A stretch of DNA of 64,000 nucleotides from Ramlibacter aurantiacus (lineage in GTDB: Bacteria > Pseudomonadota > Gammaproteobacteria > Burkholderiales > Burkholderiaceae_C), in assembly GCF_016722895.1 (NCBI RefSeq), contig NZ_JAEQNA010000001.1, positions 992,001 through 1,056,000 on the forward strand, given 5' to 3'. Made by a program: the position numbers and the translations under genes. The notes beneath the pieces are model-generated. The model made no database searches. It saw only the letters and a list, made by a program, of their open reading frames with translations, and was not told where the DNA came from. Position 1 is the stretch's first letter. Every line of letters starts with the position of its first letter. Below, piece by piece: positions 1,167 through 23,640 of the stretch.

Positions 1167-1175
1167 GAGAGACCC

Positions 1176-1952: not shown

Positions 1953-1968
1953 ACCCCAAGGAGCCGCC

Positions 1969-2355
1969 ATGCCGATGCAGACCTGTACCGCCGGAACGCT
2001 GCGATGCAGCTTCGGCGCCGCGCCGAGCACCTTCGTCGCCACGCCGCGCCCGGTGATGACGGCCAACGTGCCCGCCGGCAACATCCTGGACCACCAGCCG
2101 CTGGTCAATATCCAGCCCTTCGGGGTCTGCATGTCGCTCGCCAACCCGAGCGTGGCGGCCGCGACATCGGCCGCCCTGGGCGTGCTCACGCCCATGCCCT
2201 GCGTGCCGAACACGCCCGCCCCCTGGATCGCGGGCGCACCCAACGTCCTGATCTGCAACGCGCCGGCCCTGGACAACGTCTCCACCCTGATGTGCGCCTG
2301 GGGCGGCGTCATCACCTTCGTGTCGCCCGGCCAGTTCACCCATCACATTCCCTGA
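1969..2355 (+). CDS. DUF4280-type PAAR-like protein
   Basis: A small (128 aa) Cys/Pro-rich beta protein with no signal peptide. The start (MPMQTCTAGTLRCSFGAAPS), the internal NIQPFGVC and the late Cys (LICNAPALD...LMCAWGG) fit the DUF4280 family, PAAR-like tip proteins often found inside T6SS or related contractile clusters. They are thought to cap the VgrG spike and carry effectors. It sits between the phosphatase and tssK with short gaps on both sides (16 and 11 bp), so it is probably co-transcribed. It could serve the Tlde1-like protein at the end of the cluster, but that is inference. Confidence 0.8.
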   Translation: MPMQTCTAGTLRCSFGAAPSTFVATPRPVMTANVPAGNILDHQPLVNIQPFGVCMSLANPSVAAATSAALGVLTPMPCVPNTPAPWIAGAPNVLICNAPALDNVSTLMCAWGGVITFVSPGQFTHHIP

Positions 2356-2366
2356 GAAGCCCCAGC

Positions 2367-3704: not shown

Positions 3705-3716
3705 TGGGAGACTGCC

Positions 3717-5051: not shown

Positions 5052-5072
5052 AGCCACAGGGAGGACCGCGCC

Positions 5073-8000
5073 ATGAAATCCCTGCTGCGAACGCTGGCCA
5101 GCCCGCTCGTCCTGGGCACGCTGGGCATGGCGGTGCTGTCGGCCCTGGTCTGGTGGATCGGCCCGCTGGTGTCGATCGGGCAGGTGGCCATCCTCGCGGA
5201 CACCTCCACGCGCATCGTGACGCTGGCCGTGCTGTGGGTCGCCTGGGCCGGCTACGTGGCGTTGCGCATCGGGAGCCGGCGCCGGCGCAATGCGATGCTG
5301 CTGCAGGGCATCGGCGGGCCGCAGTCCGCCGCCGACCGCGAAGGCCAGGTGCTGAAGCAGCGCTTCGACGAAGCCATCGGCCGGCTGCAGCCCGGCGCCG
5401 GCTGGCGGCGCGCGCTGCTGGGCCGAAGCGACGGCCTGTACGGCCTGCCCTGGTACATGTTCATCGGCGCCCCCGGCTCGGGCAAGACCACGGCGCTGCT
5501 GAACGCGGGCCTGCACTTCGTCGTCGAAGACCCCGAACGCCGCTCCGTGCAGGGCATCGGCGGCACGCGCAACTGCGACTGGTGGTTCACCCGCGAAGCC
5601 GTGCTGATCGACACCGCCGGCCGCTACACCTTGCAGGAATCCGATCGCAGCATCGACTCGGCCGCCTGGAATCGGTTCCTTTCGTTGCTACGCCAGGCGC
5701 GGCCGCGGCGCCCCATCAACGGCGTACTGCTCACCGTGAACGTGCAGGACCTGCTGCAGCAGGACGACACGCTGCGGCAAGAGCACGCGGTGAAGCTGCG
5801 CAGCCGCCTGGCCGAACTGCAGGCCAAGCTGGGGGTGCGGCCGCCGGTCTACGTGCTGGTCACCAAGGCCGACCTCATCGGGGGATTCACCGAGACTTTC
5901 GAGCTCCTCGGCAAGGAGGACCGGGACCAGGTCTGGGGCTTCACCTTCCGGGCGGACCGCTTCGATCCGTCCGATCCCCTGCGCGACTTCGAGTCCGAGT
6001 ACCGGCTGCTGCAGGAGCGGCTGGGCGCGGGCCTGCTGGACCGCCTGCGCGCCGAGCGCGACCCGGTCCGCCGCGGGCTGATCTTCGGGTTCGGCTCCGA
6101 GTTCGCAGCGCTGCGGCCCGTGCTGTCGGACTTCCTGCAGCGGGTCTTCGGCAGCAGCGCAGGACCGCACGAGGGCGTCACCCTCAGGGGCGTGTACTTC
6201 ACGAGCGGCACGCAGGAAGGCACGCCCATCGATCGGGTCATGGGCATGCTCTCGCGGACCTTCGGCATGGAGGAACGCGCATCCCGTCCACCCAGCGGGC
6301 GTGGCCGCAGCTACTTCCTGCGGCGCCTGCTGCAGGACGTGGTGTTCGCCGAGTCACACCTGGTCTCGTTCAATGCAGCCGCGGAGCGCCGCCGCCGGAT
6401 GACCCGGGTCGCGGGGTTCGCCGCGGTGGGCGTCGCGGCGCTGCTCGTGGTGGCCGGGTGGGCGGTCAGCTATCTGCGTAACGTGCGCCATGCCGAGGAA
6501 GTGGCCGCGCGCGTGCCACCCCTGCGCGCCGCCGCCGAGGCGCTGCCGTCGTCCGGCGCCGACGTGCTGCGGCTGCTGCCGGTGCTGGACGCGGCCGCGA
6601 CCGCAGGAGCCGCCGGCGCCTTCCCGGTCGATGACCCGCCCCTGCTGCACACCCTGGGCCTCTACCAGGGCGAGAAGCTGGATGCGGGGGCGCAGGCCGG
6701 CTACCAGAAGCTGTTGCAGAACGGCCTGGCCCCGCGGGTGGTGCGTCGGCTGGAGGAGCGCCTGCGCGCGAGCAACCGCAACAACCTCGAACAGGCCTAC
6801 GAGGCGCTCAAGGCCTACCTGATGGTGTACTCGCCCCAGCACTTCAATGCCGAGGCCCTGAAGGCCTGGGTCGAGGTCGACTGGGACGAGCAGTTACGGC
6901 AACTGGCCCCCGAGCAGCGGCAGGCGCTGGACAGACACCTCGATGCGATGCTGGCCCTGGGAGCGCCGGCCGCCATCGCGCCGGCCGACGCCCAGCTGGT
7001 GGCCGGCACGCGCGACATGCTGGCCTCCTTCCCGCTCGAATACCGCATCTACAGCCGACTGCATCGGCGCTACCGCGCCGAGCTGCCCGAGTTCACCGTG
7101 GCCGGTGCCGCCGGACCGCAGGCGGCCAACGTGCTGGTACGCGCCAGCGGCGAGCCGCTGTCGCGCGGGGTGCCGGGCCTCTACACGCGCGATGGCTATG
7201 CCAAGGTGTTCCAGCAGGGCCCGCTCGCGCGGGTGTCGGCGCAGATGGCGGCGGAGGACGCCTGGGTGCTGGGCCGCGCCTCGCGGCCGGTGGCGGTGGC
7301 GCTGGGCGCGGAGCTGGAGAACCGGGTTCGCCGTCTCTACCTGGAGGACTACGCGCGGCATTGGGAACGGCTGCTGGCCGACGTGCGGCTCGCGCCGCCG
7401 GCAGGCCTGCAGGCCTCCATCGATTCGGCACGCGTGCTGAGCGGCCCCGACTCACCGATGGCCGCGTTCCTGCGCGCCGCGGCCCGGGAAACGGTTCTCA
7501 GCCCGGCGGCCAGGGAACCCTCGGCCCTGGGCCAGGCCGCGGCGGCCGCCAACCAGGCGAAGAAGGAGATCTCGCGCCTGGTCGACACCGGCCCGGCACC
7601 GGTCGCGGGACAGGGCCCCATCGAGCGCATCGTCGATGACCGATTCGCCTCGTTGCACCGCCTGTTCGCCGGCCAGCCTGCGCCCATCGAGCAGATGACG
7701 CGGATCTTCGCCGACGTGCATGCCCAGCTCGCCGCGGTCGATGCGGCCCAGAAATCCCGGTCAACGCCGCCGCCGGTGGATGCCGTGAAACTGAAGGCGG
7801 CCGCGGCGCAGCTGCCCCCCTCGGTGCAGTCTGCCGTGCAGGCGCTGGTCGATTCGGGCACGCGCACCGGGCGTGAGGCGGAGCAAAGTGCCCTGGCCGG
7901 GGAGCTGCGGCCGATCTACGAGTTCTGCGCGCGCGCCGTGGCCAACCGGTACCCGCTGGCGGCGGGCTCGCGGGCCGACGTGCTGCCGGGGGACTTCGGG

Positions 8001-8567
8001 CAGCTGTTCGCACCCGGCGGCCTGCTGGACGAGTTCTTCCAGCGCCGGCTGGCCCACCTGGTGGACACCGGCACCAACCCCTGGTCGTACAAGCCGCTGG
8101 CCGACGGCAGCCGGCCCGCGGCCCAGGGCTCGCTGGCGGAGTTCCAGCGCGCGGCGCGGATCCGGGACGTCTTCTTCCGCGGTGGCGGCCGCATGCCCAA
8201 CTTCCGGCACGACCTGCGGGCCGTGGAGTTCAGCGGTGACGTGAAGGAGGTGAAGCTGGAGATGGATGGCCAGGTGACCACGATCACCCCGGGATCGACG
8301 GCTTCCCTCACGGTTCCGGCCCCGCGCGCGGTGTCGCAGCTGCGCGTGCACCTCGGCACATCGCCCCCGCTGCAATTCGAGGGACCCTGGGCCGCGTTCC
8401 GGATGTTCGACCACTTCGAGGTCCTGCCCGCTGCCCAGCCCGAACGGTTCGGGCTGCTGATGATCCGCGGGGCCAGCCAGGCGCGGCTGGAGGTCGTGGC
8501 GAACAGCGCCTTCAACCCCTACCGCATGCGGGAGCTGCGGCAGTTCCGTTGCCCGGGGTCGCTGTGA
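5073..8567 (+). CDS. tssM: T6SS inner-membrane protein TssM (IcmF)
   Basis: 1164 aa, the typical size. Two N-terminal membrane helices (about 10-30 and 45-63) precede the cytoplasmic NTPase-like domain with a Walker A motif GAPGSGKTTALLNAG (Lys138) and a DTAGRY motif. A third membrane helix near residue 445-465 leads into the large periplasmic IcmF-related region and the C-terminal beta domain that contacts TssJ. The intact Walker A motif is notable because some TssM proteins have lost it. It ends in a GTGA overlap with tagF. No tssJ is visible in the window; it may lie upstream of the left edge. Confidence 0.97.
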   Translation: MKSLLRTLASPLVLGTLGMAVLSALVWWIGPLVSIGQVAILADTSTRIVTLAVLWVAWAGYVALRIGSRRRRNAMLLQGIGGPQSAADREGQVLKQRFDEAIGRLQPGAGWRRALLGRSDGLYGLPWYMFIGAPGSGKTTALLNAGLHFVVEDPERRSVQGIGGTRNCDWWFTREAVLIDTAGRYTLQESDRSIDSAAWNRFLSLLRQARPRRPINGVLLTVNVQDLLQQDDTLRQEHAVKLRSRLAELQAKLGVRPPVYVLVTKADLIGGFTETFELLGKEDRDQVWGFTFRADRFDPSDPLRDFESEYRLLQERLGAGLLDRLRAERDPVRRGLIFGFGSEFAALRPVLSDFLQRVFGSSAGPHEGVTLRGVYFTSGTQEGTPIDRVMGMLSRTFGMEERASRPPSGRGRSYFLRRLLQDVVFAESHLVSFNAAAERRRRMTRVAGFAAVGVAALLVVAGWAVSYLRNVRHAEEVAARVPPLRAAAEALPSSGADVLRLLPVLDAAATAGAAGAFPVDDPPLLHTLGLYQGEKLDAGAQAGYQKLLQNGLAPRVVRRLEERLRASNRNNLEQAYEALKAYLMVYSPQHFNAEALKAWVEVDWDEQLRQLAPEQRQALDRHLDAMLALGAPAAIAPADAQLVAGTRDMLASFPLEYRIYSRLHRRYRAELPEFTVAGAAGPQAANVLVRASGEPLSRGVPGLYTRDGYAKVFQQGPLARVSAQMAAEDAWVLGRASRPVAVALGAELENRVRRLYLEDYARHWERLLADVRLAPPAGLQASIDSARVLSGPDSPMAAFLRAAARETVLSPAAREPSALGQAAAAANQAKKEISRLVDTGPAPVAGQGPIERIVDDRFASLHRLFAGQPAPIEQMTRIFADVHAQLAAVDAAQKSRSTPPPVDAVKLKAAAAQLPPSVQSAVQALVDSGTRTGREAEQSALAGELRPIYEFCARAVANRYPLAAGSRADVLPGDFGQLFAPGGLLDEFFQRRLAHLVDTGTNPWSYKPLADGSRPAAQGSLAEFQRAARIRDVFFRGGGRMPNFRHDLRAVEFSGDVKEVKLEMDGQVTTITPGSTASLTVPAPRAVSQLRVHLGTSPPLQFEGPWAAFRMFDHFEVLPAAQPERFGLLMIRGASQARLEVVANSAFNPYRMRELRQFRCPGSL

Positions 8568-9322
8568 GCGCGCCTGGCTGGCACGGCAAGCTGCCCTCGC
8601 TCGGCGACTTCGCGTCGCGCCGGCTGGACGCCAGGTTCCTCGAGCCCTGGGATGCCTGGCTGTCGCAGGGCCTGGCGATGCTGCAGGCGCAGCCCGACTG
8701 GCTGGACCGCTACCTGCAGAGCCCGGCTTGGCGCTTCCTGCTGATGCCCGGCGTAATCGACGAGCGCACCTGGAGCGGCGTGCTGATGCCCTCGGTGGAC
8801 CGGGTGGGGCGCTACTACCCGTTCACGCTGGTGGCGACCTTCGAGGTTCCGCCAGCGCTCACGCAGGCGGCGGCGCATTGGGCCTGGCTGGGGCAGCTGG
8901 AAGACCTGGCCTTCTCGGCGCTGGACCGGGAGTGGTCGGTGGACGAGTTGGAGGGCCGCCTGAACCGGTTGAACCCGCCGGAACCGGATGGCGAAAGCGA
9001 TTCGGTTCCGCACTCGTTGCAATGGCACCAGGGCTTGCGCGGCAAGAGCTGCTGGTATGCGGCCCCGGCGGTAGGGGCGAGCAAATTCCTCATCTGCGAG
9101 CGGCTGGATTCGAACGATCTGCCTCGAACCCTGTTCGCGCCGGCCGCGCCGGAAACCGCCGGCACGCCAGCGGCGAGCAACGACCTTCCGCGAATCGACC
9201 ATCCGTCGGCCGGGGAGGGGGGTGACCGCCGATCACTCCAGCCATCCACCACCACGTCACAGGAGCCGCCATGCCGAAACCCACCTTCGATCTCGTCTAC
9301 TACGTCTGGTCCGAAACCCTGA
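8564..9322 (+). CDS. tagF: T6SS-associated protein TagF
   Basis: The opening GWHGKLPSLGDFASRRLDARFLEPWDAWL is the TagF signature, followed by VGRYYPFTL. TagF is a post-translational repressor of T6SS firing in Pseudomonas, often working alongside the PpkA/PppA/FHA pathway that is also encoded here. The GTG at 8564 overlaps the tssM stop (GTGA), which fits translational coupling; a TTG at 8549 is an alternative. The last ~35 residues are low-complexity and run 52 bp into the next gene, through its ribosome-binding site. So the C-terminus may be a read-through of a small frameshift or simply non-conserved. Confidence 0.88.
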   Translation: MSAPGWHGKLPSLGDFASRRLDARFLEPWDAWLSQGLAMLQAQPDWLDRYLQSPAWRFLLMPGVIDERTWSGVLMPSVDRVGRYYPFTLVATFEVPPALTQAAAHWAWLGQLEDLAFSALDREWSVDELEGRLNRLNPPEPDGESDSVPHSLQWHQGLRGKSCWYAAPAVGASKFLICERLDSNDLPRTLFAPAAPETAGTPAASNDLPRIDHPSAGEGGDRRSLQPSTTTSQEPPCRNPPSISSTTSGPKP

Positions 9323-9780
9323 TCGGCCAGATCGGCAAAGAGTCGTTCCGGATCCATGCGGTCACCGGGGGCGGCCGTGGCCGCACCAAGGGCAAGGAAG
9401 AGCGCTCGATGGATTCGTTCTCACCGTACCGCGCGACGGACAAGTCAGAGGATGTGCGGGGCGGCGCGCTGCCGCCCGGGCGCTGGCGCATCGAGAAACC
9501 GAGTGAGTACAAGGGCAAGATGAGAAAGCCGGTCGCCAAGCTCACGCCGAAGGGCAACCAGCTGACGGACTTCGCCATGCGCGACTACACAGACGCGCCG
9601 TTCCTGATCCATGGCCGAGGTGAAGAAGGAAGCGACGGCTGCCTAGTCATCGAGCCCGACGAGCGCCAACGTCTGCTGAACGCGGTCGAAGAAGCCGGGG
9701 GCGCCATCCTATTCGTGACGCTCGACACGCGCCCGGGCGACATGATCCAGAAGACACCCACCTTTCACCACACCGCATGA
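9271..9780 (+). CDS. Tlde1-like (DUF2778, L,D-transpeptidase-fold) candidate T6SS effector
   Basis: A 169-aa protein with no signal peptide. Visible motifs are G-LPPG-W-I around residues 65-74 and FLIHGRGEEGSDGCLVI with His114, Ser121 and Cys124. This fits the H...S-x-G-C catalytic motif of DUF2778/Tlde1 proteins, T6SS effectors that exchange D-amino acids on or cleave peptidoglycan stem peptides in the target periplasm. AGGAGCC precedes the ATG. It is the last gene of the T6SS operon. No Tldi-type immunity gene follows: the next gene is a porin on the other strand. Family placement is from the motif only; a cytoplasmic housekeeping role cannot be excluded. Confidence 0.7.
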   Translation: MPKPTFDLVYYVWSETLIGQIGKESFRIHAVTGGGRGRTKGKEERSMDSFSPYRATDKSEDVRGGALPPGRWRIEKPSEYKGKMRKPVAKLTPKGNQLTDFAMRDYTDAPFLIHGRGEEGSDGCLVIEPDERQRLLNAVEEAGGAILFVTLDTRPGDMIQKTPTFHHTA

Positions 9781-9808: not shown

Positions 9809-10810
9809 TCAGAAGCGGTAGCGCACCCCCACCGCGACCGACAGGCCGCGGGTCTGCCCCCGCACGCGATCGTCCATGCCGATCAGGTAGATGTCGGTCA
9901 CGCTGTCGTACGGGTACAGGTAGGCCGCGCTCGCCGTGCCGTGCCGCCGGTCGACGGCTGGGCCGTCGGCCTGGGCCCGGCCGTATTGGGCCTGCAGGGT
10001 GCCGGGCCCGACGGGGACCGCGACACCGGCCGTCGCGAGGTGGCTTCGCACGTCCAGCCCCTTGTCGCGGGTGCGCGTGTAGAGACCGAACACGCGCGCG
10101 AAGCCGAAGTTGTAGGTGGCCCCCAGCTGCCACGCGTTTTCGCTGAGCAGGTCGTCGATGCCGTCGTCCCGGTGCACGCGCTGCGCCGAGAGCGCCCCGG
10201 CGAACAGGCCCTTGGCCACCACCAGGCTGGCGGCGTAGCGGTCGCCGCGCGCCGAGTTGTCGCCCTGGCTGTACATGAGGTTGCCGGTGATGCCGTCGAA
10301 GTTTGGCGTGCTGTAGCTGATCGCCCGGTTCCAGTAGAAATCGCCCTGCACGCCTTCGAGGTTGCCCGACCCGAACACATGCCGCAGCGCGGGTGAGAAG
10401 GCCGGCGAGTTGCCCAGCGCGTTGAAGCGCGCCGTGGTGTCGAACAGGAAGGTCTGCAGGCGGCCGACGCGCGCCGTGCCGTAGGGGCTGGCCAGCGAGA
10501 CGAAGGCGTTGCGCGAGAACAGCGGGTCGTCGTTGTTGCGGCCGAGGCGCCAGTCCTGGAAGCGCAGGAAGGTCTCCAGCGTCATGCCCGGCGTCCAGCC
10601 GCCCTCCAGGCCGTAGGTGGCGTTCACGCCGACGAAGCTGGCACTGAGCGAATTGCTGTTGAAGCGGTGTTCGCGGTAGAAGCCGCTGCGCTCGAAGCGG
10701 CCGTAGGAGAGGTCGAGCACGCCGTAGAAGGAGTGGTCGAACTGGGCGTGGGCTTCCAGGGCGGCGAAGCACAGCAGACCGGCTGCGTACCTCAGAATCT
10801 TTGTGTGCAT
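9809..10810 (-). CDS. Gram-negative outer-membrane porin
   Basis: 333 aa with a signal peptide (MHTKILRYAAGLLCFAALEAHA, cut before QFDHSFYG). Many amphipathic beta strands alternate aromatic and polar residues, and it ends in VGVRYRF, the C-terminal Phe signature recognised by the BAM machinery. This matches trimeric general porins of beta-proteobacteria in layout, slightly shorter than the usual 350-380 aa. It lies 28 bp from the T6SS operon (convergent) and 44 bp upstream of the end of the mrtJ gene on the same strand, so it could be the last gene of that operon or have its own promoter. Confidence 0.85.
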   Translation of the reverse strand: MHTKILRYAAGLLCFAALEAHAQFDHSFYGVLDLSYGRFERSGFYREHRFNSNSLSASFVGVNATYGLEGGWTPGMTLETFLRFQDWRLGRNNDDPLFSRNAFVSLASPYGTARVGRLQTFLFDTTARFNALGNSPAFSPALRHVFGSGNLEGVQGDFYWNRAISYSTPNFDGITGNLMYSQGDNSARGDRYAASLVVAKGLFAGALSAQRVHRDDGIDDLLSENAWQLGATYNFGFARVFGLYTRTRDKGLDVRSHLATAGVAVPVGPGTLQAQYGRAQADGPAVDRRHGTASAAYLYPYDSVTDIYLIGMDDRVRGQTRGLSVAVGVRYRF

Positions 10811-10854: not shown

Positions 10855-11295
10855 TCAGCCCCGGACTGACATTCCCGCCATGTGCCAGGCGAGCCATCCG
10901 GCATTCATCACCGCATGCAGTGCAACGCAGTAACGGAGCTTGCCCGTGCGCTCGTACACCACACCGATCACCAGCGCGGGGATGACGACGGCGAAAGCTG
11001 TCGCATCGTCGCGTGCCAAGGCATGCGCCGCGCCGAACGCGACCGCCGTCAGCGCATTCGCCGCCATCGCCGGCCATGCAGGCCAGCGTCGCAGCAAGAT
11101 TTCTTGCATGCCGCTCCGGAACAGTGCCTCCTCGACCAGCGGCGCCACCACCAGCAGCATGACGATGCGTGGCCATTCGTGAACTGCTGCTGCCGCTGCC
11201 ACGACCGACACCAGCACGCCCGCTGCGATCAGCGGTCCGTAGGAATGCCTGCGAAACCATCCGCCCCCTGCCGCGCGGAGCCGGCCGAAGGTCAT
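10855..11295 (-). CDS. mrtJ: JDVT-CTERM-type CPBP/CAAX glutamic intramembrane protease (MrtJ-like)
   Basis: 146 aa and very hydrophobic, with about four membrane helices. The CPBP motifs are present: EE (Glu55-Glu56 in APLVEEALFR), His91 (FGAAHAL) and His127-x3-Asn131 (HAVMNAG). Short single-domain proteases of this type are dedicated partners of proteins with a JDVT-CTERM tail. The gene directly upstream encodes exactly such a tail, and the two overlap by ATGA at 11292-11295, so I use that ATG rather than the GTG at 11301. The likely job is to cleave or process the C-terminal anchor of that cytochrome-like protein. A generic CPBP protease is the alternative. Confidence 0.82.
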   Translation of the reverse strand: MTFGRLRAAGGGWFRRHSYGPLIAAGVLVSVVAAAAAVHEWPRIVMLLVVAPLVEEALFRSGMQEILLRRWPAWPAMAANALTAVAFGAAHALARDDATAFAVVIPALVIGVVYERTGKLRYCVALHAVMNAGWLAWHMAGMSVRG

Positions 11296-14009
11296 GGACA
11301 CCTGACTCGCGCCGCCGTCCGGCGCCGATGGAATACCGCGGCAGCAGCGAGCAGCACCAGCGCCCAGAGCGTCGGGTCGGCCAGCGCGTCGCCGGAAGCA
11401 ATCGAGCAGCCGCCGCTCGAGACATCGGTTCGCTCCTGCCCACTACCGGCCAGTGGCACCTCGAGTGCCTTGGCGTCCAGATCGGTGCTCACGCGCAGCA
11501 TTCCCGTCGCTGCATTCCCATCCGTTGGCGTGAACATCACGGACACGGTGCAGTCGCTGCCCCGTGTCAGCGTGAATGGAGGCGTTGGGCAGGTTTTGGA
11601 TTGAACGCTGAACGGCGCATCGGCGCTAATTGCGGTCACCTCGAGCACGCCATCACCCGCGCTGGCGAGTCTCAACTCAAGCGGCGCTGATTGCGCTCCT
11701 ACTCGCACGCTGCCCAGTGCCATGCTGGAGCTGGAGGCAGTCAGGTGGGCCGAGGTGCCACCGACCGCGCGTCCGCTCACCGCGACCAGCGGCGGGGGAA
11801 TGCCGAAGGACGAGACCACCTCCAGCTGCGCATGCTTGGCGCCGCCGCTGCCAGGCACGAATTGGACGCTGATCACGCAGGAACCTCCCGGGAACATCAC
11901 CGCAGGACACCCGCTGACGCTGAAGTTGGATGCATCCGCGCCAACCATGCGAATCGCGTGGATCCCGGCGTTCACCGAACCCGCGTTGCGCAGCACCACC
12001 ATCCCAGGCCGCTCCGACTGTTGACCCGCGATGACGAAGCCGGCAAAAGTGATCGGTCCCGGCGCGTCGGCGAACACGAGCACCGGTGGGGATTCCAGCG
12101 TGCCGGCGACGGCCGACAAGCCGACGGTACGTGTAGGAGCTGACGGGGCGTCGGTATTGATCTGCAAGGAGCCGCTGTAGCTTGCTTCAGGTCGCGTCGG
12201 GTCAGGGGTGAACTGGACATACACCGTACAACTCGCCCCCGGGGCAAGCACCTGGTCGTCACAGGTCGATTGCGTGGCGGGATCCGGCACGATCACGAAC
12301 CCGCCGCCGGACAGAGACACTGTATTGATGCGCAGAAAGGAGCTCGCTCCTTCGCCATTGCCAATGACAACGGGTTCAGGCAGAAACGCGCCATTGATCG
12401 CTCGACGGCCGAAATCGATCGACTCGCGTGAGAGCGTCAACAGCGGGCCTGGCACGGCCACCCCGTTCCCACAGACCTCAACTGCTTGCGCACCATTGCT
12501 GCTGACTGCGGCGCTAATCGTCACCGTCGTACAACTTTGCCCCAGGCGTCTCGGTGTAAAGCGCAACGTTATCGCGCAGTTGGGGGCGTTGCTGCCGCTC
12601 GTGATTCTGGGCAAGGGCGGCGCTGACGCGCAGTCGTCGGTAAGTGCGAACCCGTCCGGGTTGGTGGATGTGACAGGATTGAGGTCGAGTCCGTCTGCAG
12701 TGCCCGTGTTGAACACGAGTAACTCATTCCACGGCGCACTCGTGGTATTGATGGGTTGAGCAGCAAATGCCGGCGGAGATACTCGTCCTGCTACAGCGCT
12801 CGGGCTTGTAAACAGACCGATGCGGGGTCGGTTCACGGTCGCCACGTCACCGGTCATCAGAAAGTCTGCCACCGTCCCGGCCGTGGGGGCGTTGTGTATC
12901 ACCCGCAGCATGGCGTTACGCGCGCCAGTGCGGCCAGCTTCGCCAAACTTGGAGGGGTTGAACCGAATAGCCAAGGTACAGGCCGAATCTGCGGGGCGGA
13001 GCGTCGTTTCACCAGATATGGGGCTCCCTATGGAGGCATTGCAAGGGCGGTGCGCCGCCGAACACCTCGCGTTGTCGCCCCACTCGAAATACGAGGAATG
13101 ATCAGCTTCGTCATTTGCCTGCAGCACCGAAAAGTCGAGCGTCAGGATTCCATCGCCCGCGTTCTGAATGGTTGGGCAAAGCGTGTCGGAACCATCGGGC
13201 GGCGCCGAGAATTGTCGGAGCGCGTCGAATCCCGCAGTTGAGAAAATAGGACCAACCGGGGGCGGGCCTGCGGACGTCCCCGTAAAGCGAATCCGATATT
13301 GAACGTCTGAAGGCGTCTGCCCCGCTGCGAACCTCAGATTCAGATCGATCACGGAGGATAAGCTGTCACCATTGTTCGTTCCTGCCGCTGGGGAGAACTT
13401 GATGTCAATTTCGCATTCCTCAGCGATTGTTCCCGCCGAGCCAGCTACCACGGGGGGGTTCGGCGGGCTCGGCGGGCTCGGCGGAGCAATACAGGTATTC
13501 CGGGAGATGCTTAGGTGGGTCATCGCCCCCGCAAGGCCCACGACCTGGAGCGGTTTCGCGCGAGTGTTTGCTATACGGATAGTGACCGCATCACTAGATG
13601 ATCCAACTTGGACAGGGGTTGTGAAGGTGTGGGATCCTTCTGCCGACGTATAAATTCTGCGGCCATCGAGGAATACCAGAGCATCCCGAACGGTTATCAG
13701 GTACTCGCGGATAAGCTGAACCTCATTGATATTCAGCACACCCTGCATTGGGGAGGTCCCCCGATAAATACCGCTGGCATCACTGGTGGCAACAAACTCT
13801 TGCAAGTACTTGTGCAAGGCTGCATCGGCCCCCAGGCGGTCATCGCCCCCGAGGTTCGGCATGTTGAATTTCCCCTCCACGCCCGGTGGAGTGCCATGGC
13901 AAGAAGAGCAGCGGCTACTGTAAAGAGGGGGGACGTCTACATCCGCCGCCGTTGCCGCGGAGATCAGGATGACCGACGTGGCAAGACATATCAGGTAGCG
14001 TGCGAGCAT
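11292..14009 (-). CDS. Secreted cytochrome c / ASH-repeat protein with JDVT-CTERM-like sorting tail
   Basis: 905 aa from the ATG at 14009, chosen because it gives a clean signal peptide (MLARYLICLATSVILISAATA). A mono-heme c domain follows (C34-S-S-C37-H38). The rest is a chain of about five to six ~100-residue immunoglobulin-like ASH/choice-of-anchor-D repeats (recurring C-x-V-x-V-x-F-x-P and L-x-F-G-x-R patterns). The last ~40 residues read SSGGCSIASG, then DPTLWALVLLAAAAVF, then HRRR: a Gly/Cys motif, one helix and a basic end, the layout of JDVT-CTERM sorting signals. A Pro/Ser tract PPSPPSPPNPP lies near residue 180. It is probably exported, processed by the adjacent protease and exposed at the cell surface. 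Its redox role is unknown. Confidence 0.78.
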   Translation of the reverse strand: MLARYLICLATSVILISAATAADVDVPPLYSSRCSSCHGTPPGVEGKFNMPNLGGDDRLGADAALHKYLQEFVATSDASGIYRGTSPMQGVLNINEVQLIREYLITVRDALVFLDGRRIYTSAEGSHTFTTPVQVGSSSDAVTIRIANTRAKPLQVVGLAGAMTHLSISRNTCIAPPSPPSPPNPPVVAGSAGTIAEECEIDIKFSPAAGTNNGDSLSSVIDLNLRFAAGQTPSDVQYRIRFTGTSAGPPPVGPIFSTAGFDALRQFSAPPDGSDTLCPTIQNAGDGILTLDFSVLQANDEADHSSYFEWGDNARCSAAHRPCNASIGSPISGETTLRPADSACTLAIRFNPSKFGEAGRTGARNAMLRVIHNAPTAGTVADFLMTGDVATVNRPRIGLFTSPSAVAGRVSPPAFAAQPINTTSAPWNELLVFNTGTADGLDLNPVTSTNPDGFALTDDCASAPPLPRITSGSNAPNCAITLRFTPRRLGQSCTTVTISAAVSSNGAQAVEVCGNGVAVPGPLLTLSRESIDFGRRAINGAFLPEPVVIGNGEGASSFLRINTVSLSGGGFVIVPDPATQSTCDDQVLAPGASCTVYVQFTPDPTRPEASYSGSLQINTDAPSAPTRTVGLSAVAGTLESPPVLVFADAPGPITFAGFVIAGQQSERPGMVVLRNAGSVNAGIHAIRMVGADASNFSVSGCPAVMFPGGSCVISVQFVPGSGGAKHAQLEVVSSFGIPPPLVAVSGRAVGGTSAHLTASSSSMALGSVRVGAQSAPLELRLASAGDGVLEVTAISADAPFSVQSKTCPTPPFTLTRGSDCTVSVMFTPTDGNAATGMLRVSTDLDAKALEVPLAGSGQERTDVSSGGCSIASGDALADPTLWALVLLAAAAVFHRRRTAARVRCP

Positions 14010-14046
14010 CTTCCATCTCCCACATCGGATCTGGCAGTTCGAGACG

Positions 14047-15435
14047 TCAAACACAATCCACCACCCTGAATTCGACCCGCCGGTCCAGCGCATCGCGTTG
14101 ATCGTCCGTCCCCAGTCCCACCAGCGCCTCGCGCGAGCCCACGCCGCTGGCGGTCAGGCGGGTGCCCAGGCTGCGGTTGCGCTGCTCCAGCATCTTCTGC
14201 ACCGCCTCGGCGCGCTGGCGCGAGAGCCGTTCGTTGACCCGCGCACTGCCGGTGCGGCTGGTGTGGCCGACGATGCGCACGCAGGCCGCGGCCTTGCCGG
14301 TCTGCTGCGCCAGCGAGGCGAGCCAGATCTGGTATTGCTCGCGCAGGTCGCCGATCTCATTGAAGGTGGTGCGCCCAGGCTGGAACAGCAACTTGACCGG
14401 CAGGCGCTTGGCTTCCAGGCCCGAGTCGACCAGCCGGGCGAAGGCATCGCGCGCCGCCTCACGCTGCCCCAGTTGCCAGTTGGTGAGGTAGAGCCCGTTC
14501 AGCACCCGAAGGTCACCCGGGTCAGCCAGTGATTCGGCTTCCTTGTACAGCTTGTTCGCCAGCGGGATCTCCCCCTTGCCATAGGCCAGGATGGCTTCGT
14601 TGACCACCGCCGCGGCCGGCAGGCGGGCGAGGTACTCGGGGTCCGCCAGGTCGCCGATCTTGGTGTTGACCTGGCACGAGTTGATGTAGCCCAGCACGGT
14701 CTTGTCCCGGTGCCAGGTCGGGCTGTCCTTGTAGAAGGGCAAGGGCTCCGGGTTCACCGAATCCGCGGTCGCACGGTCGATCTGCTTGGCGATGACCTGG
14801 CCGGTGCGCAAGTCGATCAGCGTGAGCCAGACGCGGAACGCATCCGGCACGGTGTCGACCGCCCGTTCCACGTTGACCGGCGTGAGGGTTCCGATCAGCA
14901 GCAAGGGCTTATCGGCCAGCGCCTGCCGGGTCAGCGGCTGGACGGTCCAGCGTGCCTGCCGCGCCTTGACCATCGACTCGAGCTGCTCACCCATCTGGGC
15001 GGTGCTCACCGTCTGCGCACCGGTGTTGGCGTCGATCAGCGGATCGATGACCAGCACGCGCGGCTCGTCCCCCAGCCGGGTGCGGGCTTGCGCGAACAGG
15101 TCCTGGCCGGCCCGGGTGACGGAGTTCTCGAAGGGCACCGGGGCGGGCGCGACGAAGTTGCTGTCGGCCCGAGCGGGTGTTGCAGCGGCCGCTCGCGTGG
15201 CTGGCGCCGCCGCGGGCGGCACGGCGACGGCCGGTGGCTGCGGAAGCGGGCTCGCGACGTGCGCCGCGGCCGGTGGCGCGGCGACATCCCCCGTCATGCG
15301 CACCACTGCAGACGGCGGCGGGCTAGCAGTGCCCGCCGAAGGACGCGCAGGCATGTTCGGGCTGGAGCAGCCGGCGAACAGGGCCGCCGTCATCAGCAAC
15401 GTGGTCCAAGCCGGCCTGCGAAGCGACTGGTTCAT
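14047..15435 (-). CDS. OmpA-family outer-membrane lipoprotein
   Basis: 462 aa from the ATG at 15435 (an upstream in-frame ATG at 15456 would add seven residues before the signal). The signal ends in a lipobox (LFAGC-SS), so the mature protein is predicted to be lipid-anchored. A Pro/Ala linker precedes a curli-assembly-like/FlgT-like middle region (VLVIDPLIDANTGAQTVSTAQMG..., LTLIDLRTGQVIAKQ). Short TPR-like helices follow at about 255-325, and a C-terminal OmpA-like domain (RIVGHTSRTGS...RRVEFRVVDC) should bind peptidoglycan. It lies 30 bp downstream of the diheme lipoprotein gene and 37 bp upstream of the cytochrome c/ASH gene. Co-expression with these and a structural role for the complex are likely. 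Confidence 0.8.
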   Translation of the reverse strand: MNQSLRRPAWTTLLMTAALFAGCSSPNMPARPSAGTASPPPSAVVRMTGDVAAPPAAAHVASPLPQPPAVAVPPAAAPATRAAAATPARADSNFVAPAPVPFENSVTRAGQDLFAQARTRLGDEPRVLVIDPLIDANTGAQTVSTAQMGEQLESMVKARQARWTVQPLTRQALADKPLLLIGTLTPVNVERAVDTVPDAFRVWLTLIDLRTGQVIAKQIDRATADSVNPEPLPFYKDSPTWHRDKTVLGYINSCQVNTKIGDLADPEYLARLPAAAVVNEAILAYGKGEIPLANKLYKEAESLADPGDLRVLNGLYLTNWQLGQREAARDAFARLVDSGLEAKRLPVKLLFQPGRTTFNEIGDLREQYQIWLASLAQQTGKAAACVRIVGHTSRTGSARVNERLSRQRAEAVQKMLEQRNRSLGTRLTASGVGSREALVGLGTDDQRDALDRRVEFRVVDCV

Positions 15436-15465
15436 GAATCGATTTCCTTCTGCCATGCGCCACCA

Positions 15466-17745
15466 TCAGCGCTTCGGATACGCCGGATCGGGCCGAGGTG
15501 AATCGCACCCGAGGAAGTTGCGCATCAATGCCGCGAGAGTGGGATCGGTCCGGGTCCGCTCCGCGACACGGTTCATCGTCACCAGTGCATTGGGCATGGT
15601 CGCGTTGCGCGCTACATCGGGCGTTCCACCGCAGACGTAGGGCTCCGCTTGCGTCCTGAGTCCAAGAGGTCCGATGAAGTCCCAATCGAAGTTGTCTCCA
15701 AGCGCGGTATGACAGGTGCGGCAGGAAGAGCCGATCACCTCGCGATAGAACTTCCCGGCACCGGCATGTGCCTGCGTCTCGTCCACGCGCCAATTCGGCG
15801 GCACGTAGCTCTTGTCCAGGGTCTTGCCGCCGTGTGCATACCAGCCGTCGATGAGTCGGGTGGTCGCGGTGCTCGGCGATTTGGATGTCGAAGGTTCGGT
15901 CGCACGCACCAGCCGGTTCAGCTCGAAGATCGCCTCGCTCTGGGCCTGTTCGGTCAGGCGCGGGCTGGAGCCGAAGCGGAAGTTGCCGGTGTCGAAGGGC
16001 AGGAACCTCGCCCCGAGGTAGGGCGAGGGGTTGCCCTTGTCGGGGAAGCGCCCGTTGTACTGCGTGCCGCCGTGGCAGGCCACGCACGCACCCGGCATGA
16101 ACTTCTCACCACGGCCGTCGAGATTGATGGACGGCAGCAGTGATCCATCGGGCGCGAAGGTCAGGAACTTGGTGAAGGGCAAGCCCGCGTTGACGCCCGG
16201 CGTGGTGGTCCATTCCATCGCGACGCAGGCCACCCGCTTCTCGTCCCGCAGACCCGCTTCGATCACCCTGTCGACTTCGGCCTGCGTGCTTCCATCCGGC
16301 CCAGGATGGTTGCAGACGTAGAAGGCGATCGAATCGGGAGCGTTTTCCGTGGCCACCATGCGCCGGACCAGGTTCAGGTCCATGCGGTTGATGAAGTCGG
16401 CCCGATACTCCGTGTTGGTGCCGGCGTAGGGCTTGAACTTGTGCTGCCGCTTCCAGTCCTCGAACGAGATGGGTCGGACCATCCGCCCCTGGTCATCACA
16501 GTCGCCGGCAGCGCCGAAAGAGCGGTAGTACATGCAAGCGCTGCGCCGCGTGTCCTTGCCCTTGTAGGTCAGGAAGTGGTCCGGTTGCGGCAGGGCCTTG
16601 GATTGATCGCCCTCGAATTCCAGCTGCAACATCTCGCCGCGAACGTTCCCGTCGGGACCACTGGCGAGCATCTTCACGGTACGGGGCCGGCTGTTCGGGA
16701 TCTGGTGCGAGAGCTCGACCGGGGAGCTGCTCACATATCCGAGCACAGGCGATGCCGGCGGCGGCAAGTCCAGGGTAGTCGCGTACGACTCGCACTGCAC
16801 GCGCAGCTTGAGCCTGGCCGTGACCGCGACCGCCGCATCGATTGCATAGTCGCCGAAACGATTGACGCGAACCGGCGGCGCCAGTGATGTGCCGTCTACC
16901 GCAAGCAACTGGACCGTGGCTGCACTCTGTATACCCAGGAACTCGTTCTCCGTGCCACAGACGCCGCCGTCGGCGAGGGCGACGTGTCCGTGCAGTCGGA
17001 GGTTTCGCGCGCCGTTGCGCGCGTCTCTCGTTGGGGATTCGAGTGTGACCACAGCAGCCTTGGCGTCCTGTTCCAAAGTGAACCGGCCACAGAGTTCGAG
17101 TACGGCGCCCTGATTCGTCGCGCACCGGACCTGGTAGCTTTCGCCTGCACGAAGCTTGGGCAGGCTGACCTCGCCACTGAGGTCGGACGCGCCGCTGAAC
17201 ACCACCTCTGCGCCAGACACCACCTGGACCTGCACGTCGGGCAGGTAGACCATGCGTCTCACGGCTGCACCGCCACCCGGTGGCGCGAAATTGGTATCGC
17301 CGCTGGCGTGGAATCGCAGGCGCCGCGGCGCGCCGGCGATCTCGGTCACGGGCGGTGGGACATGGCTCACCGGCTGCGGCGCCCGCCCTTCCCCGCCGAT
17401 GGCGTCGCTCGATGCCGCGTACTGCTGCTCGACGTAACCGCCCTTGCCATCGGACACCAGGACATAGGCGAAATGCAGGCCCGGGCCTTCCGGCAGGGTC
17501 CATACGGTTTCGCGTGCATTACGGTTCTCGATCGTGCCGCCGGTGACACGCCACTGGTATCGCAAGCTGTCGCCGTCGACGTCGGCCGCATCCACGCGAA
17601 GCGAGGTCTTGGTGGGGCCGCTGTTCTCGGGGCTGCCGGTGCTGCCCGCGCCACCACCACATCCAGCCAGCGAGGCGGCCATCAGGCCGAGCGCCATTGC
17701 AATCCAGCCCTTGCGAGGGAGGTGCCCAGGGTGACGAGAGTTCAT
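15466..17745 (-). CDS. Large lipoprotein with two heme c motifs (CVACH, CRTCH)
   Basis: 759 aa. The signal peptide ends in a lipobox (ASLAGC-GGG). Residues ~45-110 are a cadherin/PKD-like segment (DGDSLRYQW), residues ~170-330 are beta-rich carboxypeptidase-regulatory-like modules, and the C-terminal ~330 residues carry two c-heme attachment sites, C554-V-A-C557-H558 and C675-R-T-C678-H679, plus other Cys. This looks like a surface or periplasmic diheme protein; no peroxidase or oxidase signature is evident to me. It is the first gene of the operon that continues with the OmpA lipoprotein, the cytochrome c/ASH protein and the MrtJ-like protease. Function unknown; an electron-transfer or redox-enzyme subunit is possible. 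Confidence 0.75.
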   Translation of the reverse strand: MNSRHPGHLPRKGWIAMALGLMAASLAGCGGGAGSTGSPENSGPTKTSLRVDAADVDGDSLRYQWRVTGGTIENRNARETVWTLPEGPGLHFAYVLVSDGKGGYVEQQYAASSDAIGGEGRAPQPVSHVPPPVTEIAGAPRRLRFHASGDTNFAPPGGGAAVRRMVYLPDVQVQVVSGAEVVFSGASDLSGEVSLPKLRAGESYQVRCATNQGAVLELCGRFTLEQDAKAAVVTLESPTRDARNGARNLRLHGHVALADGGVCGTENEFLGIQSAATVQLLAVDGTSLAPPVRVNRFGDYAIDAAVAVTARLKLRVQCESYATTLDLPPPASPVLGYVSSSPVELSHQIPNSRPRTVKMLASGPDGNVRGEMLQLEFEGDQSKALPQPDHFLTYKGKDTRRSACMYYRSFGAAGDCDDQGRMVRPISFEDWKRQHKFKPYAGTNTEYRADFINRMDLNLVRRMVATENAPDSIAFYVCNHPGPDGSTQAEVDRVIEAGLRDEKRVACVAMEWTTTPGVNAGLPFTKFLTFAPDGSLLPSINLDGRGEKFMPGACVACHGGTQYNGRFPDKGNPSPYLGARFLPFDTGNFRFGSSPRLTEQAQSEAIFELNRLVRATEPSTSKSPSTATTRLIDGWYAHGGKTLDKSYVPPNWRVDETQAHAGAGKFYREVIGSSCRTCHTALGDNFDWDFIGPLGLRTQAEPYVCGGTPDVARNATMPNALVTMNRVAERTRTDPTLAALMRNFLGCDSPRPDPAYPKR

Positions 17746-19740: not shown

Positions 19741-22479
19741 TCACCGGGCATTGCCTTCGACAGGACGCGCCGGCTCCGCCGGAGGACCTCCGGCCGATTC
19801 GATTCCCGGCCCATCGACCGAACGGCCGTCCGCGAACACCGTCTTGCCGTTGTCCGTCTTCTTGCCGTCCCTGAACTCGCCCTCCCAGAAGGTGCCGCTG
19901 GGCCACAGGTACTTGCCGTGCCCGTGGTGCCTCCCCTTGACCCAGCTGCCGGTGTAGGTGTCGCCACTCACGAAGCGCATGCTGCCCTGGCCATGCGGCT
20001 CGTCGGCGGCGAAGTCGCCCGTGTAGCGCTGGCCATTGGCCCAGACGAACTGGCCCCTGCCCTGCCGGTGTCCGTTCACCCAGCGGCCGGTGTACACGTC
20101 GCCGTTGGTGAAGCGCATGCTGCCTTCACCGTGCGGCTGGTCCGCCGACCACTCGCCCTGGTAACGCTGGCCGTTCGCCCAGACGAACTCGCCCTTGCCG
20201 TGCTGTTTTCCCTTCACCCATTCGCCCGTGTAGACGTGTCCGCTGGCGAAGCGCATCGTGCCCTGCCCGTGCGGCACGTCACCGGCCCATTCGCCGCTGT
20301 ATCGCTGGCCATTGGCCCACTCGAAGGTCCCCTTGCCCTCCTTGCTGCCGTTGACCATGCGCCCTTCGAAGCGGTCGCCGTTGGGATAGGTGATCTGGCC
20401 GTTGCCGGACAGGGCACCGGTCGCCGGATCGCGTGCGAAGGGACCGGGGGCCGCTGCCACTCTTGGCGCAGCTGGCGCAGCAGTGGGCGCCGCAGGTGAG
20501 GCGGCGGGCGGTGGCGGCACCGCTGCCGCGGCCGGGGCCGATCCGACCAAGTTCGGGGGCGCGGCCTCCGTCCTGGACGGCGCTGCGGGCGAAACCTGCT
20601 CGCGGGCTCCAGGCGCAGCCGGCAGCAGCGGCGGTGGCCGGGTGACGGTGATCTGCGATGGAGCTGGCTCGAACGGACGTGCCGAAGCGGGTGCGGCATC
20701 GGCCGGTGCGGATCCCGCGCCCGGTGGGGTGGGCGCCGTCGCGGCGCGAGGAGCCGTCGCAGGCGGCACCGGCGCAGCCGCCGGAGCAGGAGCTGCCGCG
20801 AGCCTGGTCTGCCTGGCCTCCAGCATCATCCGTGCCGCATCGGCATGCCTGCCGCGCGGATAGCGCCGGAGATACGCCTCATAGGCAGCGGCGGTGTCCC
20901 GCATGGTGGCGCCCCTCCAGAACTCGTCCTCGGGGGACAGCCCCGGACCGGGTGCCAGGGCCACTGATGGATTCGCAGCGCCCGCCGCCGCCGGAGGCGG
21001 GGACGTGTCTGTTCCGGGCGCAGGGGAACGCGACGGGGGGCTGGTCGCCTGCGGATCCGGCAGGGGTGCGGGTGCTGGAGGTACCGGTCCCTGGACAGAC
21101 GCGGACGCTGGCTCTGATGGAACTGAAGCGCGCGGTGCAGCCGGTGGTGCCGACGGTGGTGGAGATGGCTGCGCCGGACCGCTGACGGACGGGCCGGCAG
21201 CGGCCACCTCCGTCGACGAGCGCGCGTCGGAAGCGCCGGCTTCTTCGCCGGTTGCTGATCCGAAGAGGTATGCGAACAGGGCTGCGCCCGTCACGGCTGC
21301 CCCGGCCACGCCAGCCATTGCCCAGCCGGTCCGGCTCCTGTTGCCGGCCTTGGGCTCGGGCTGGCCCATGGTGTGCCGATCGCCTGGGTTGGCCGTGGTG
21401 CTGCCGGGCGGCAGCGAGGGGGGCCATGTCCGCAACTGCGGCTCGATTCTCGGCGGCTGGACCGCAGCGGCACCCGCTGCCTTGCCAATGGTGCGCACCG
21501 CCCCGGGCATCGTCCGCGGCCCGCTCTCTTCCGCCAGGGCCTTCCGAAGCTCCGACACGTTCTGGATACGCTGGCTCGGGTGGACGGCTAGCGCGTGATC
21601 GATCGCATCGAGCAGGTTCTCGCTGTACCGCCCGCGTCCGGCTTCGCGCGCGGGAAGCATCTCGTCTCCGACGATCCGGGCCGCCGATGGCGGTGGCGCC
21701 GTGCCGGTGATCACGAAGTACGCCACGGCCCCCAGCGCGTAGATGTCCGTCCACGGACCCTGCTTCATGCCCGGCGAGTCCGCGTACTGCTCGATGGGAG
21801 CGAAGCCGGGCTTGAGGATGACGGTGAGCCCGCGCGTCGTATCCCCGATCACCCGCCTGGCGGCTCCGAAGTCCAGCAGCAGCGGCCTGCCGTCCTTCAG
21901 GATGAGGATGTTGTCGGGCGCGATGTCACGGTGATAGCAATGCTCCCCGTGGATGGTCTCCACGGCGTCGAACAGGTTCACGAGCATGGCACGCAGCCAG
22001 CGCTCGTTGGCATCGACGCGGCCCTCGCGCAAGGACTGGCGCAGCGTGACGCCTTCGTAGAACGGCATCACCATGTAGGCGGTCCCATTCGCTTCCCAGA
22101 ACCGATACACCTTGACCAGCGAAGGCGAATCGAAGCGCGCCAGCAACCGGGCTTCCCCGACGAAGCTCTTCAAGCCCGCCGAGAAGGTCTCGACGTGCTG
22201 GCGGGACCGGACGGTCACCTGCAGGGCCTGCGTTCGCGAGGCCATGCCCGAGGGCATGAATTCCTTGAGCGCGACCATGCGGTGGAGCGAGCCGTCGTAA
22301 GCCAGGTAGACGATTCCGAAGCCACCTTCCCCGATCACCCCCCGGATCTCGAATTCACCGAGTTGCGTGCCCGGTGGCAGCGCGTTCTCCGGCCATGTGC
22401 CCGGCGCTTGCGAACTCGGCGAGCCGCTTCGAAGCACGGTCTTGTCTGGATCAGGTTCCTGGTCTGTGGACGAGTTCAC
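19741..22479 (-). CDS. Transmembrane Ser/Thr protein kinase with eight MORN repeats
   Basis: 912 aa. Kinase domain ~40-310: Gly loop G-E-G-G-F-G, Lys72 (VALKEF), HRDIAPDNILI and LLDFGAARRV. A membrane helix (WAMAGVAGAAVTGAALFAYLFG) is near 390-412. It is followed by ~280 residues of Pro/Ala-rich linker with an inserted short helical segment (DEFWRGATMRDTAAAYEAYLRRYPRG...). Residues ~698-881 are eight MORN repeats of 23 residues. MORN units often bind lipids or membranes, so this protein may sense the envelope and signal inward. It lies 93 bp upstream of the other kinase on the same strand. Kinases of this plan occur near T6SS loci in Comamonadaceae; a T6SS role is inferred. Confidence 0.87.
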   Translation of the reverse strand: MNSSTDQEPDPDKTVLRSGSPSSQAPGTWPENALPPGTQLGEFEIRGVIGEGGFGIVYLAYDGSLHRMVALKEFMPSGMASRTQALQVTVRSRQHVETFSAGLKSFVGEARLLARFDSPSLVKVYRFWEANGTAYMVMPFYEGVTLRQSLREGRVDANERWLRAMLVNLFDAVETIHGEHCYHRDIAPDNILILKDGRPLLLDFGAARRVIGDTTRGLTVILKPGFAPIEQYADSPGMKQGPWTDIYALGAVAYFVITGTAPPPSAARIVGDEMLPAREAGRGRYSENLLDAIDHALAVHPSQRIQNVSELRKALAEESGPRTMPGAVRTIGKAAGAAAVQPPRIEPQLRTWPPSLPPGSTTANPGDRHTMGQPEPKAGNRSRTGWAMAGVAGAAVTGAALFAYLFGSATGEEAGASDARSSTEVAAAGPSVSGPAQPSPPPSAPPAAPRASVPSEPASASVQGPVPPAPAPLPDPQATSPPSRSPAPGTDTSPPPAAAGAANPSVALAPGPGLSPEDEFWRGATMRDTAAAYEAYLRRYPRGRHADAARMMLEARQTRLAAAPAPAAAPVPPATAPRAATAPTPPGAGSAPADAAPASARPFEPAPSQITVTRPPPLLPAAPGAREQVSPAAPSRTEAAPPNLVGSAPAAAAVPPPPAASPAAPTAAPAAPRVAAAPGPFARDPATGALSGNGQITYPNGDRFEGRMVNGSKEGKGTFEWANGQRYSGEWAGDVPHGQGTMRFASGHVYTGEWVKGKQHGKGEFVWANGQRYQGEWSADQPHGEGSMRFTNGDVYTGRWVNGHRQGRGQFVWANGQRYTGDFAADEPHGQGSMRFVSGDTYTGSWVKGRHHGHGKYLWPSGTFWEGEFRDGKKTDNGKTVFADGRSVDGPGIESAGGPPAEPARPVEGNAR
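19837..20388 (-). repeat. Eight 69-bp MORN-coding repeats arranged as a 138-bp super-repeat
   Basis: The MORN modules alternate between two types: WANGQRY-x-GEW/DF...PHGxGxMR, and F-x-x-G-x-x-YTG-x-W-V-x-G-x-x-x-GxG-x-F/Y. Each pair makes 46 residues. Units 2-7 are highly similar in DNA and protein, which points to duplication of a two-repeat block. Confidence 0.85.
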
Positions 22480-23463: not shown

Positions 23464-23516
23464 GAGTCGGGTCGGGGTTCTGTTGGTGGGTGGTGTCCGC
23501 GGTGCTCGGTGCCGGT

Positions 23517-23535
23517 AGGACAAGCCGCCCACCAG
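23517..23535 (+). repeat. 19-bp direct repeat, copy 2
   Basis: AGGACAAGCCGCCCACCAG, 17 of 19 identical to the copy at 22647-22665. It lies in the 177-bp gap after the 201-aa gene. Confidence 0.55.
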
Positions 23536-23640
23536 CACCGGGAGCCGCGCGTTCGATCTTCTCGGCAGGAAGTTGAGCTCGGCGTTCTTCGGAATCGCGC
23601 AAAACGGGCGATGACGCCGTTCACCGAGTCGCATTCCAAC

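Follow-up and report, generated by a model that had tools for sequence, protein, structure and literature searches.

The JDVT-CTERM sorting tail and the glutamic intramembrane protease MrtJ are known as a plain two-gene neighbourhood, according to the account in PMC11980579, which cites Haft 2024. That account also covers the protease MrtX, which cleaves TraA and anchors it on the surface, and the 35 MYXO-CTERM proteins of Myxococcus xanthus. Here we analyse a JDVT-CTERM/MrtJ pair in a 64,000-nucleotide stretch of Ramlibacter aurantiacus DNA (contig NZ_JAEQNA010000001.1, positions 992,001 to 1,056,000; hereafter the window). As in the pair so described, the two genes are adjacent and both score over curated cut-offs, with one of each in the genome; six more tail matches fall far below the cut-off. 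Unlike the two genes of that account, the pair stands within a conserved unit of heme, porin and kinase genes, which in some genomes lies near a type VI secretion system (T6SS). The likeness to MrtX and MYXO-CTERM lies in a protease of related type and in a tail that has an invariant cysteine, a helix and an arginine-rich end, whereas the protease studied here has one target as against the 35 given for M. xanthus.

Control of the T6SS has precedents in signalling from TagQ/TagR to PpkA, as presented in PMC6657622, and in OmpA-TslA-TssM of Acinetobacter, in which, on the account of PMC10482370, an OmpA-domain protein is thought to report cell contact to the T6SS. The window shares with the threonine phosphorylation systems (TagQRST-PpkA-Fha-PppA; RtkS-PpkA) the presence of lipoproteins, a membrane Ser/Thr kinase, an FHA protein, a PP2C phosphatase and TagF in one region, but differs in its heme proteins, JDVT sorting, porin and two-cysteine kinase tail. 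The names TagQ, TagR, TagS and TagT did not come up in general scans of the window's genes, which included no search aimed at them. An OmpA-domain protein as putative contact reporter to the T6SS is the feature in common with OmpA-TslA-TssM so described; here, in contrast, the signal would pass via a kinase, and the OmpA domain belongs to a lipoprotein without the aspartate of the GHTD motif. Porin-cytochrome conduits are made up of a porin and CxxCH proteins, with many CxxCH motifs. The locus likewise brings together a porin, a lipoprotein and putative surface CxxCH proteins, but with three CxxCH motifs rather than many, a porin of a general family and a linked kinase.

A conserved unit around the JDVT-CTERM/MrtJ pair

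The earlier note on this DNA described a block of four genes, here placed on the minus strand, encoding a diheme-motif lipoprotein (DihemeLP), an OmpA-domain lipoprotein (OmpALP), a cytochrome/ASH/JDVT protein (CytASH) and MrtJ. With the starts we chose, this order was reproduced, as were gaps of 30 and 37 bp and a 4-bp ATGA overlap. The identification of the sorting pair was borne out by the hidden Markov model (HMM) comparison that the note had named beforehand: the tail scored above the JDVT-CTERM cut-off of 27 bits and the protease above the MrtJ cut-off of 75 bits (Table 1). The four-gene extent was right for these genes and too short for the unit, which includes a porin as its terminal gene, is flanked by a Ser/Thr kinase gene in 17 of 17 loci and in the window adjoins a T6SS cluster, toward which the operon is transcribed. 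Both of the window's Ser/Thr kinase genes lie upstream of the operon.

The 17 loci comprise the window, 11 found by a scan of genome contigs with DihemeLP (52–68% identity; Piscinibacter, Rhizobacter, Massilia, Zoogloea, Polaromonas, Caldimonas and other beta-proteobacterial genomes) and those of genomes G580, G1078, G1136, G986 and G1056. Loci L193–L196 come from contigs already represented by L076, L069, L070 and L072 and were counted once. L071 is cut at a contig end for CytASH, MrtJ and the porin, leaving 16 uncut loci. DihemeLP and OmpALP are adjacent in all 17, and CytASH and the porin follow in all 16 uncut loci, the window included. MrtJ keeps its place at 14 of these 16 loci; it stands after the porin in L070 and is absent from the locus in L048 and L072. 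The joint conservation of the four genes in relatives, the note's second check, is thus also borne out, with MrtJ included in 14 of 16. The coupling of the sorting pair to a heme lipoprotein, also proposed earlier, holds in the same 14 loci but not in the other two, where the CytASH tail is kept and the genome has a distant MrtJ-like gene below the cut-off (63.3 and 68.7 bits). In G580, the gene beside the distant MrtJ encodes a 1525-amino acid protein with DUF7948, SBBP repeats and a JDVT-like tail (L125:9951-14528, minus strand).

JDVT-CTERM matches 12 of the 12 scanned CytASH proteins (E<=0.01), as does NF012200; the four remaining tails were read by eye. GGC and one arginine column are invariant in the tail alignment (n = 12), and the catalytic EE, H and HxxxN are kept in all 14 aligned operon MrtJ proteins. 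The MYXO-CTERM model TIGR03901 is also matched by four of the 12 tails at E<=0.01.

The unit is rare in the family, being present in 2 genomes out of 200 and, in the sample of 399, in 10. Across 369 genomes of the class, full-length DihemeLP was found only in the window and, without the rest of the unit, in G835, which belongs to another order. There, two distant homologs (L159:9748-13434 and L160:15521-17848) lie ~25 kb apart with no OmpALP or CytASH match nearby. G835 and other weak DihemeLP relatives were ruled out as members of the unit, no OmpALP or CytASH match being present in the stretches examined. Among 399 genomes of the order, MrtJ scores over the cut-off at 17 places, and the window's alone has the whole unit; the other 16 (L051–L066) have neither DihemeLP nor OmpALP in the 7–20 kb examined. 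The unit is therefore one setting of MrtJ and not its usual one. A search of plasmids for MrtJ gave no match.

Two of the unit's proteins carry CxxCH motifs. DihemeLP (759 amino acids) has both of its motifs in all 17 loci, and a lipobox in the window and in 12 of 12 relatives. CytASH has one motif in all 16 uncut loci; it varies in length from 747 to 1399 amino acids among 12 sequences (905 in the window, the others measured stop to stop), and 11 relatives are 27–50% identical to the window's copy. The earlier suggestion of two further lipoproteins with CxxCH sites holds for DihemeLP but not for OmpALP, which has no such site in the window's translation or in any of 12 relatives. Neither DihemeLP nor CytASH matches a cytochrome family over the cut-off (PF13442, 16.8 and 14.7 bits; cut-off 27). 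Judging by the motifs, hemes are expected on DihemeLP (CVACH and CRTCH) and CytASH (CSSCH). A structure model of DihemeLP (pLDDT 63.7) gave unspecific beta-domain matches in Foldseek and no others.

Table 1. Features of the window in and around the unit (positions in window coordinates).
Feature	Position	Strand	Support
T6SS cluster end: FHA protein, PP2C phosphatase, TssK, TssL, TssM, TagF, weak Tlde1-like gene	3..9780	+	
Porin_4 outer-membrane porin, final gene of the unit	9809..10810	-	PF13609 110.5 bits
MrtJ glutamic intramembrane protease (CPBP); EExxxR, H and HxxxN motifs intact	10855..11295	-	NF033192 99.7 bits
CytASH, exported; N-terminal CSSCH, ASH/choice-of-anchor-D repeats, JDVT-CTERM tail	11292..14009	-	NF012200 140.2 bits; NF033191 43.1 bits
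OmpALP, OmpA-domain lipoprotein; N-terminal domain weakly LpoB-like	14047..15435	-	PF00691 40.5 bits; AlphaFold2 (AF2) model and Foldseek
DihemeLP, lipoprotein; two CxxCH (CVACH, CRTCH), beta-rich N-terminal part	15466..17745	-	motifs, lipobox
Single-pass Ser/Thr kinase; two-cysteine tail in last ~30 residues	17932..19647	-	PF00069 88.1 bits; hydrophobic segment 378-396
Second Ser/Thr kinase; MORN repeats, no two-cysteine tail	19741..22479	-	PF00069, PF02493

OmpALP and the two-cysteine tail of its partners

OmpALP has 57–79% identity to the window's copy in 12 relatives. Its AF2 model (13 sequences) has a pLDDT of 72.7 and a pTM of 0.69, and its sole Foldseek match with E<0.001 is to TagL, a T6SS protein, in the OmpA domain (7bba, E 9.3e-4). 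The likeness of the N-terminal domain to LpoB (4q6l, E 2.3e-3) and to GNA1162 and PelC (E 0.01–0.02) is weak, and that to CsgG weaker still. In OmpA domains, the aspartate of GHTD and the arginine of LSxxRA contact the diaminopimelate of peptidoglycan. The arginine is kept in OmpALP, and the aspartate is replaced by serine in 15 and by threonine in one of 16 distinct operon rows. The proposal that OmpALP would fix the cytochrome to the wall is weakened by this replacement and by the usual partner of OmpALP across its wider family, a protein with a two-cysteine tail. Because the aspartate is missing and the partner is tailed, we discarded the idea that OmpALP serves chiefly as a wall anchor.

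This tail, about 30 residues long, follows the pattern C-x3-[IL]-x3-[LM]-S-L-G-[ED]-...-C, variants included, and ends an open reading frame (ORF) that flanks the operon in all 17 loci. The kinase HRD motif lies in the same ORF as the tail in 14 of them; in L068 it is in a neighbouring ORF, in L072 there are two overlapping ORFs, and L069 is cut by a contig end. The tailed kinase gene is mostly upstream of the operon and in the same direction, being divergent in L070 and beyond the porin in L073, L074 and L075. The window's MORN kinase has no such tail.

An HMM of the 17 operon tails was run against 16,765 ORFs. Its top 24 matches are by construction those same kinases, some loci being present twice, and below them come weak matches (E 0.01 to 2.4) to kinases encoded next to OmpALP paralogs and to one unrelated ORF (E 2.3). 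A looser regular expression matched 42 of 5,357 ORFs of at least 150 amino acids, all of them in OmpALP loci, which contain 2,231 of these ORFs. Kinase- or TIR-type partners account for 41 of the 42 matches (28 distinct genes), and one is apparently spurious; shuffled tails gave a mean of 2.75 matches and a maximum of 5.

The pairing extends beyond the operon. There are 79 OmpALP-like genes (E<=1e-40) in 60 of 399 family genomes, and 10 of the 79 are operon orthologs. We inspected the neighbourhoods of 32 of the 69 paralogs and of one copy on an alphaproteobacterial plasmid (L217); 31 of these 33 are uncut, L201 and L202 being cut upstream of OmpALP and left out of the counts. A tailed neighbour on the same strand stands just upstream of the paralog in 25 of the 31. 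The 25 partners are 15 kinases (14 in a single ORF; the L229 tail is out of frame with its kinase domain), six TIR proteins (four by Pfam TIR_2, L189 and L190 by motif), two short proteins (L232 and L233) and two without a class (L217 and L234).

Several of these pairs deserve mention in their own right. The TIR proteins directly upstream of OmpALP paralogs have one hydrophobic segment and the two-cysteine tail (L207:8599-9516, L210:8438-9328, L211:11001-11921 on the minus strand, L212:10391-11554 on the minus strand, L189:533-1426 and L190:467-1420), and an envelope-triggered TIR system is a possible role for them. The alphaproteobacterial pair (L217:4929-7122) is on a megaplasmid of Indioceanicola profundi, and its upstream protein has no Pfam match. 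The short tailed ORFs just upstream of OmpALP (L232:10336-10695 on the minus strand and L233:8689-9198) encode 119 and 169 amino acids with no kinase or TIR domain.

Association with the type VI secretion system

TssM (TIGR03348) scores over the cut-off in all operon genomes (13 of 13 and 4 of 4). In the 399-genome family sample, in which an OmpALP profile score of at least 685 bits defined an operon ortholog, TssM occurs in 10 of 10 genomes with the operon and in 121 of 389 without it (Fisher 1.1e-5, with kinship and genome size ignored). At the thresholds used, OmpALP and TssM were both absent from five further genomes of the genus to which the window belongs.

The operon borders T6SS genes in six of the 17 loci, in differing arrangements: the window, Zoogloea L074 (tssK), Massilia L075 (tssA to tssH, with TssM on other contigs), Polaromonas L078 (tssK), G1136 (TagF and PP2C; the contig also carries TssM) and G1078 (TssM and the kinase ~8 kb apart). 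At the window's T6SS locus, kinase, FHA, PP2C and TagF are all present, and the 20 kb preceding the window (L140) hold tssA, tssC, tssF, tssG, tssH, vgrG and an hcp-like gene below the cut-off. Pairs of tailed kinase and OmpALP without the heme genes occur at the T6SS clusters of G1016, G1009 and G462. The G1016 pair has TssM, TagF and PP2C on one side and VgrG and TssH on the other; that of G462 has PP2C on one side and VgrG and TssH on the other; for G1009, the TssM side was examined. Genomes with paralogs only are also enriched in TssM (33 of 50).

Other features of these regions were recorded. The weak Tlde1-like gene of the window (9271-9780; E 0.0015, below the cut-off) overlaps tagF and is a candidate T6SS effector. 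In L124, L126, L128, L130 and L135, which are T6SS loci of operon genomes, an ORF 28–31% identical to TssC lies near TagF or the kinase and is possibly an extra sheath-like protein. Upstream of both window kinases are a 260-amino acid protein without a Pfam match and a VWA protein (22852-24774). Rfam, at gathering scores, gave a single match in the window, a tRNA gene (59098-59170). A scan for promoters and terminators gave no result above shuffled sequences, and PADLOC returned generic kinase, TIR and MotB-like matches.

Possible roles of the unit

The kinase, the porin and the nearby T6SS genes make an envelope sensor a likelier role for the unit than an electron-transfer device. We favour, at a probability of roughly 45%, a reading from sequence in which the module would be a trans-envelope receptor for the membrane Ser/Thr kinase and would work with the neighbouring T6SS. 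We prefer kinase-mediated T6SS control because known T6SS control offers two templates, TagQ/TagR-PpkA and OmpA-TslA-TssM. Heme would be attached to the CxxCH proteins in the periplasm. By analogy with MrtX and TraA, the cysteine of the JDVT tail would be lipidated and MrtJ would cut the CytASH tail beside it, so that CytASH would be displayed on the surface. DihemeLP, OmpALP and the porin would be located at the outer membrane, where CytASH, DihemeLP and the porin may form an antenna. That OmpALP so often stands next to a tailed membrane kinase or TIR protein suggests a relay function across the periplasm, in which OmpALP would touch the kinase tail and pass on contact, damage or redox state. 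The kinase would then phosphorylate FHA or a T6SS target, PP2C would reset the system, and the T6SS would fire at the touched or damaged site of the envelope.

A number of observations count against this receptor reading. Contact between OmpALP and the tail is a guess, as is the target of phosphorylation. Among the 31 uncut OmpALP paralogs, six stand without a tailed neighbour (L203, L204, L224, L225, L226 and L237), a hydrophobic segment after the kinase domain exceeds the hydropathy threshold in just 11 of 17 kinases, and the regular expression behind the 42 tail matches was composed after the tails had been seen. Operon genomes have other kinases at their T6SS loci, all seven of those examined being without the tail, and these may be the actual T6SS kinases. 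With regard to the T6SS itself, the 10 operon genomes span six genera, so that shared ancestry inflates the Fisher figure (for six genera, (131/399)^6 = 0.0013). TssM is on another contig, with no T6SS gene seen beside the operon, in 11 of 17 genomes; the operon genomes do not form one clade in a TssM tree; and 121 of the 131 T6SS genomes in the 399-genome sample lack the operon. Since OmpALP paralogs also occur far from T6SS genes and 17 of 50 paralog-only genomes have no TssM (E<=1e-30), the OmpALP-tail chassis is not specific to the T6SS.

This last point bears on an explanation in which the module is a kinase receptor unrelated to the T6SS and the co-occurrence reflects large, socially complex genomes. 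The OmpALP paralog pairs found away from T6SS genes, some with TIR domains, and the TssM enrichment of paralog-only genomes are in its favour, but T6SS genes at six of 17 operons and at three paralog pairs speak for a connection, and we judge this explanation unlikely. The surface redox assembly of the earlier note would make the CytASH monoheme, DihemeLP and the porin a short porin-cytochrome conduit whose outer cytochrome is placed by MrtJ. Such a use is possible, and the unfailing conservation of the CxxCH motifs and of the neighbouring porin agrees with it. The unit has, however, three CxxCH motifs in all, too short a heme chain to span the outer membrane; its porin is of the general family Porin_4, and the kinase tail and T6SS link are left unexplained. 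We regard this assembly as improbable.

Equally doubtful is a T6SS-associated adhesin or envelope-remodelling set, in which the ASH protein would be a displayed adhesin or spacer, OmpALP would aid wall synthesis or placement of the machine, and the hemes would be structural. The repeat-rich, length-variable CytASH, the T6SS adjacency and the presence of LpoB and TagL among the top Foldseek matches of OmpALP fit this explanation, whereas the retention of both DihemeLP motifs and the flanking tailed kinase gene in all 17 loci do not. Finally, the locus could be an ordinary two-gene JDVT-CTERM/MrtJ pair that happens to neighbour unrelated envelope genes, as the description in PMC11980579 and the 16 of 17 MrtJ places without DihemeLP or OmpALP in the examined stretches might lead one to expect. 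Identical neighbours in 17 genomes of many genera, in an order that is conserved, largely contradict it, and in L070, L048 and L072 the rest of the unit is kept with MrtJ moved or missing; we consider it very improbable.

The receptor reading has a wider form, which we put forward tentatively. OmpALP and the two-cysteine tail might be a general trans-envelope signalling pair with an exchangeable inner output (Ser/Thr kinase, TIR or short protein). In the present unit, the pair would have gained an MrtJ-sorted surface cytochrome, DihemeLP and the porin, and would pass surface redox state or damage, perhaps via a disulfide switch of the tail cysteines, to a T6SS-arming kinase. Redox sensing through these cysteines is the boldest part of the reading. 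Literature searches, mostly of titles and the beginnings of abstracts, found neither the larger unit nor its T6SS link nor the tail-OmpALP pairing, which is not proof that these are unpublished; they likewise returned nothing joining the T6SS with choice-of-anchor D, or a CPBP intramembrane protease with the T6SS.

With this locus the JDVT-CTERM/MrtJ pair acquires a definite biological context, and T6SS control a possible outer part that bears heme. The locus also brings to light a recurring pair of lipoprotein and tail whose outputs are kinases or TIR proteins, and bears on how Gram-negative cells may carry a signal from the outer membrane to a cytoplasmic kinase.

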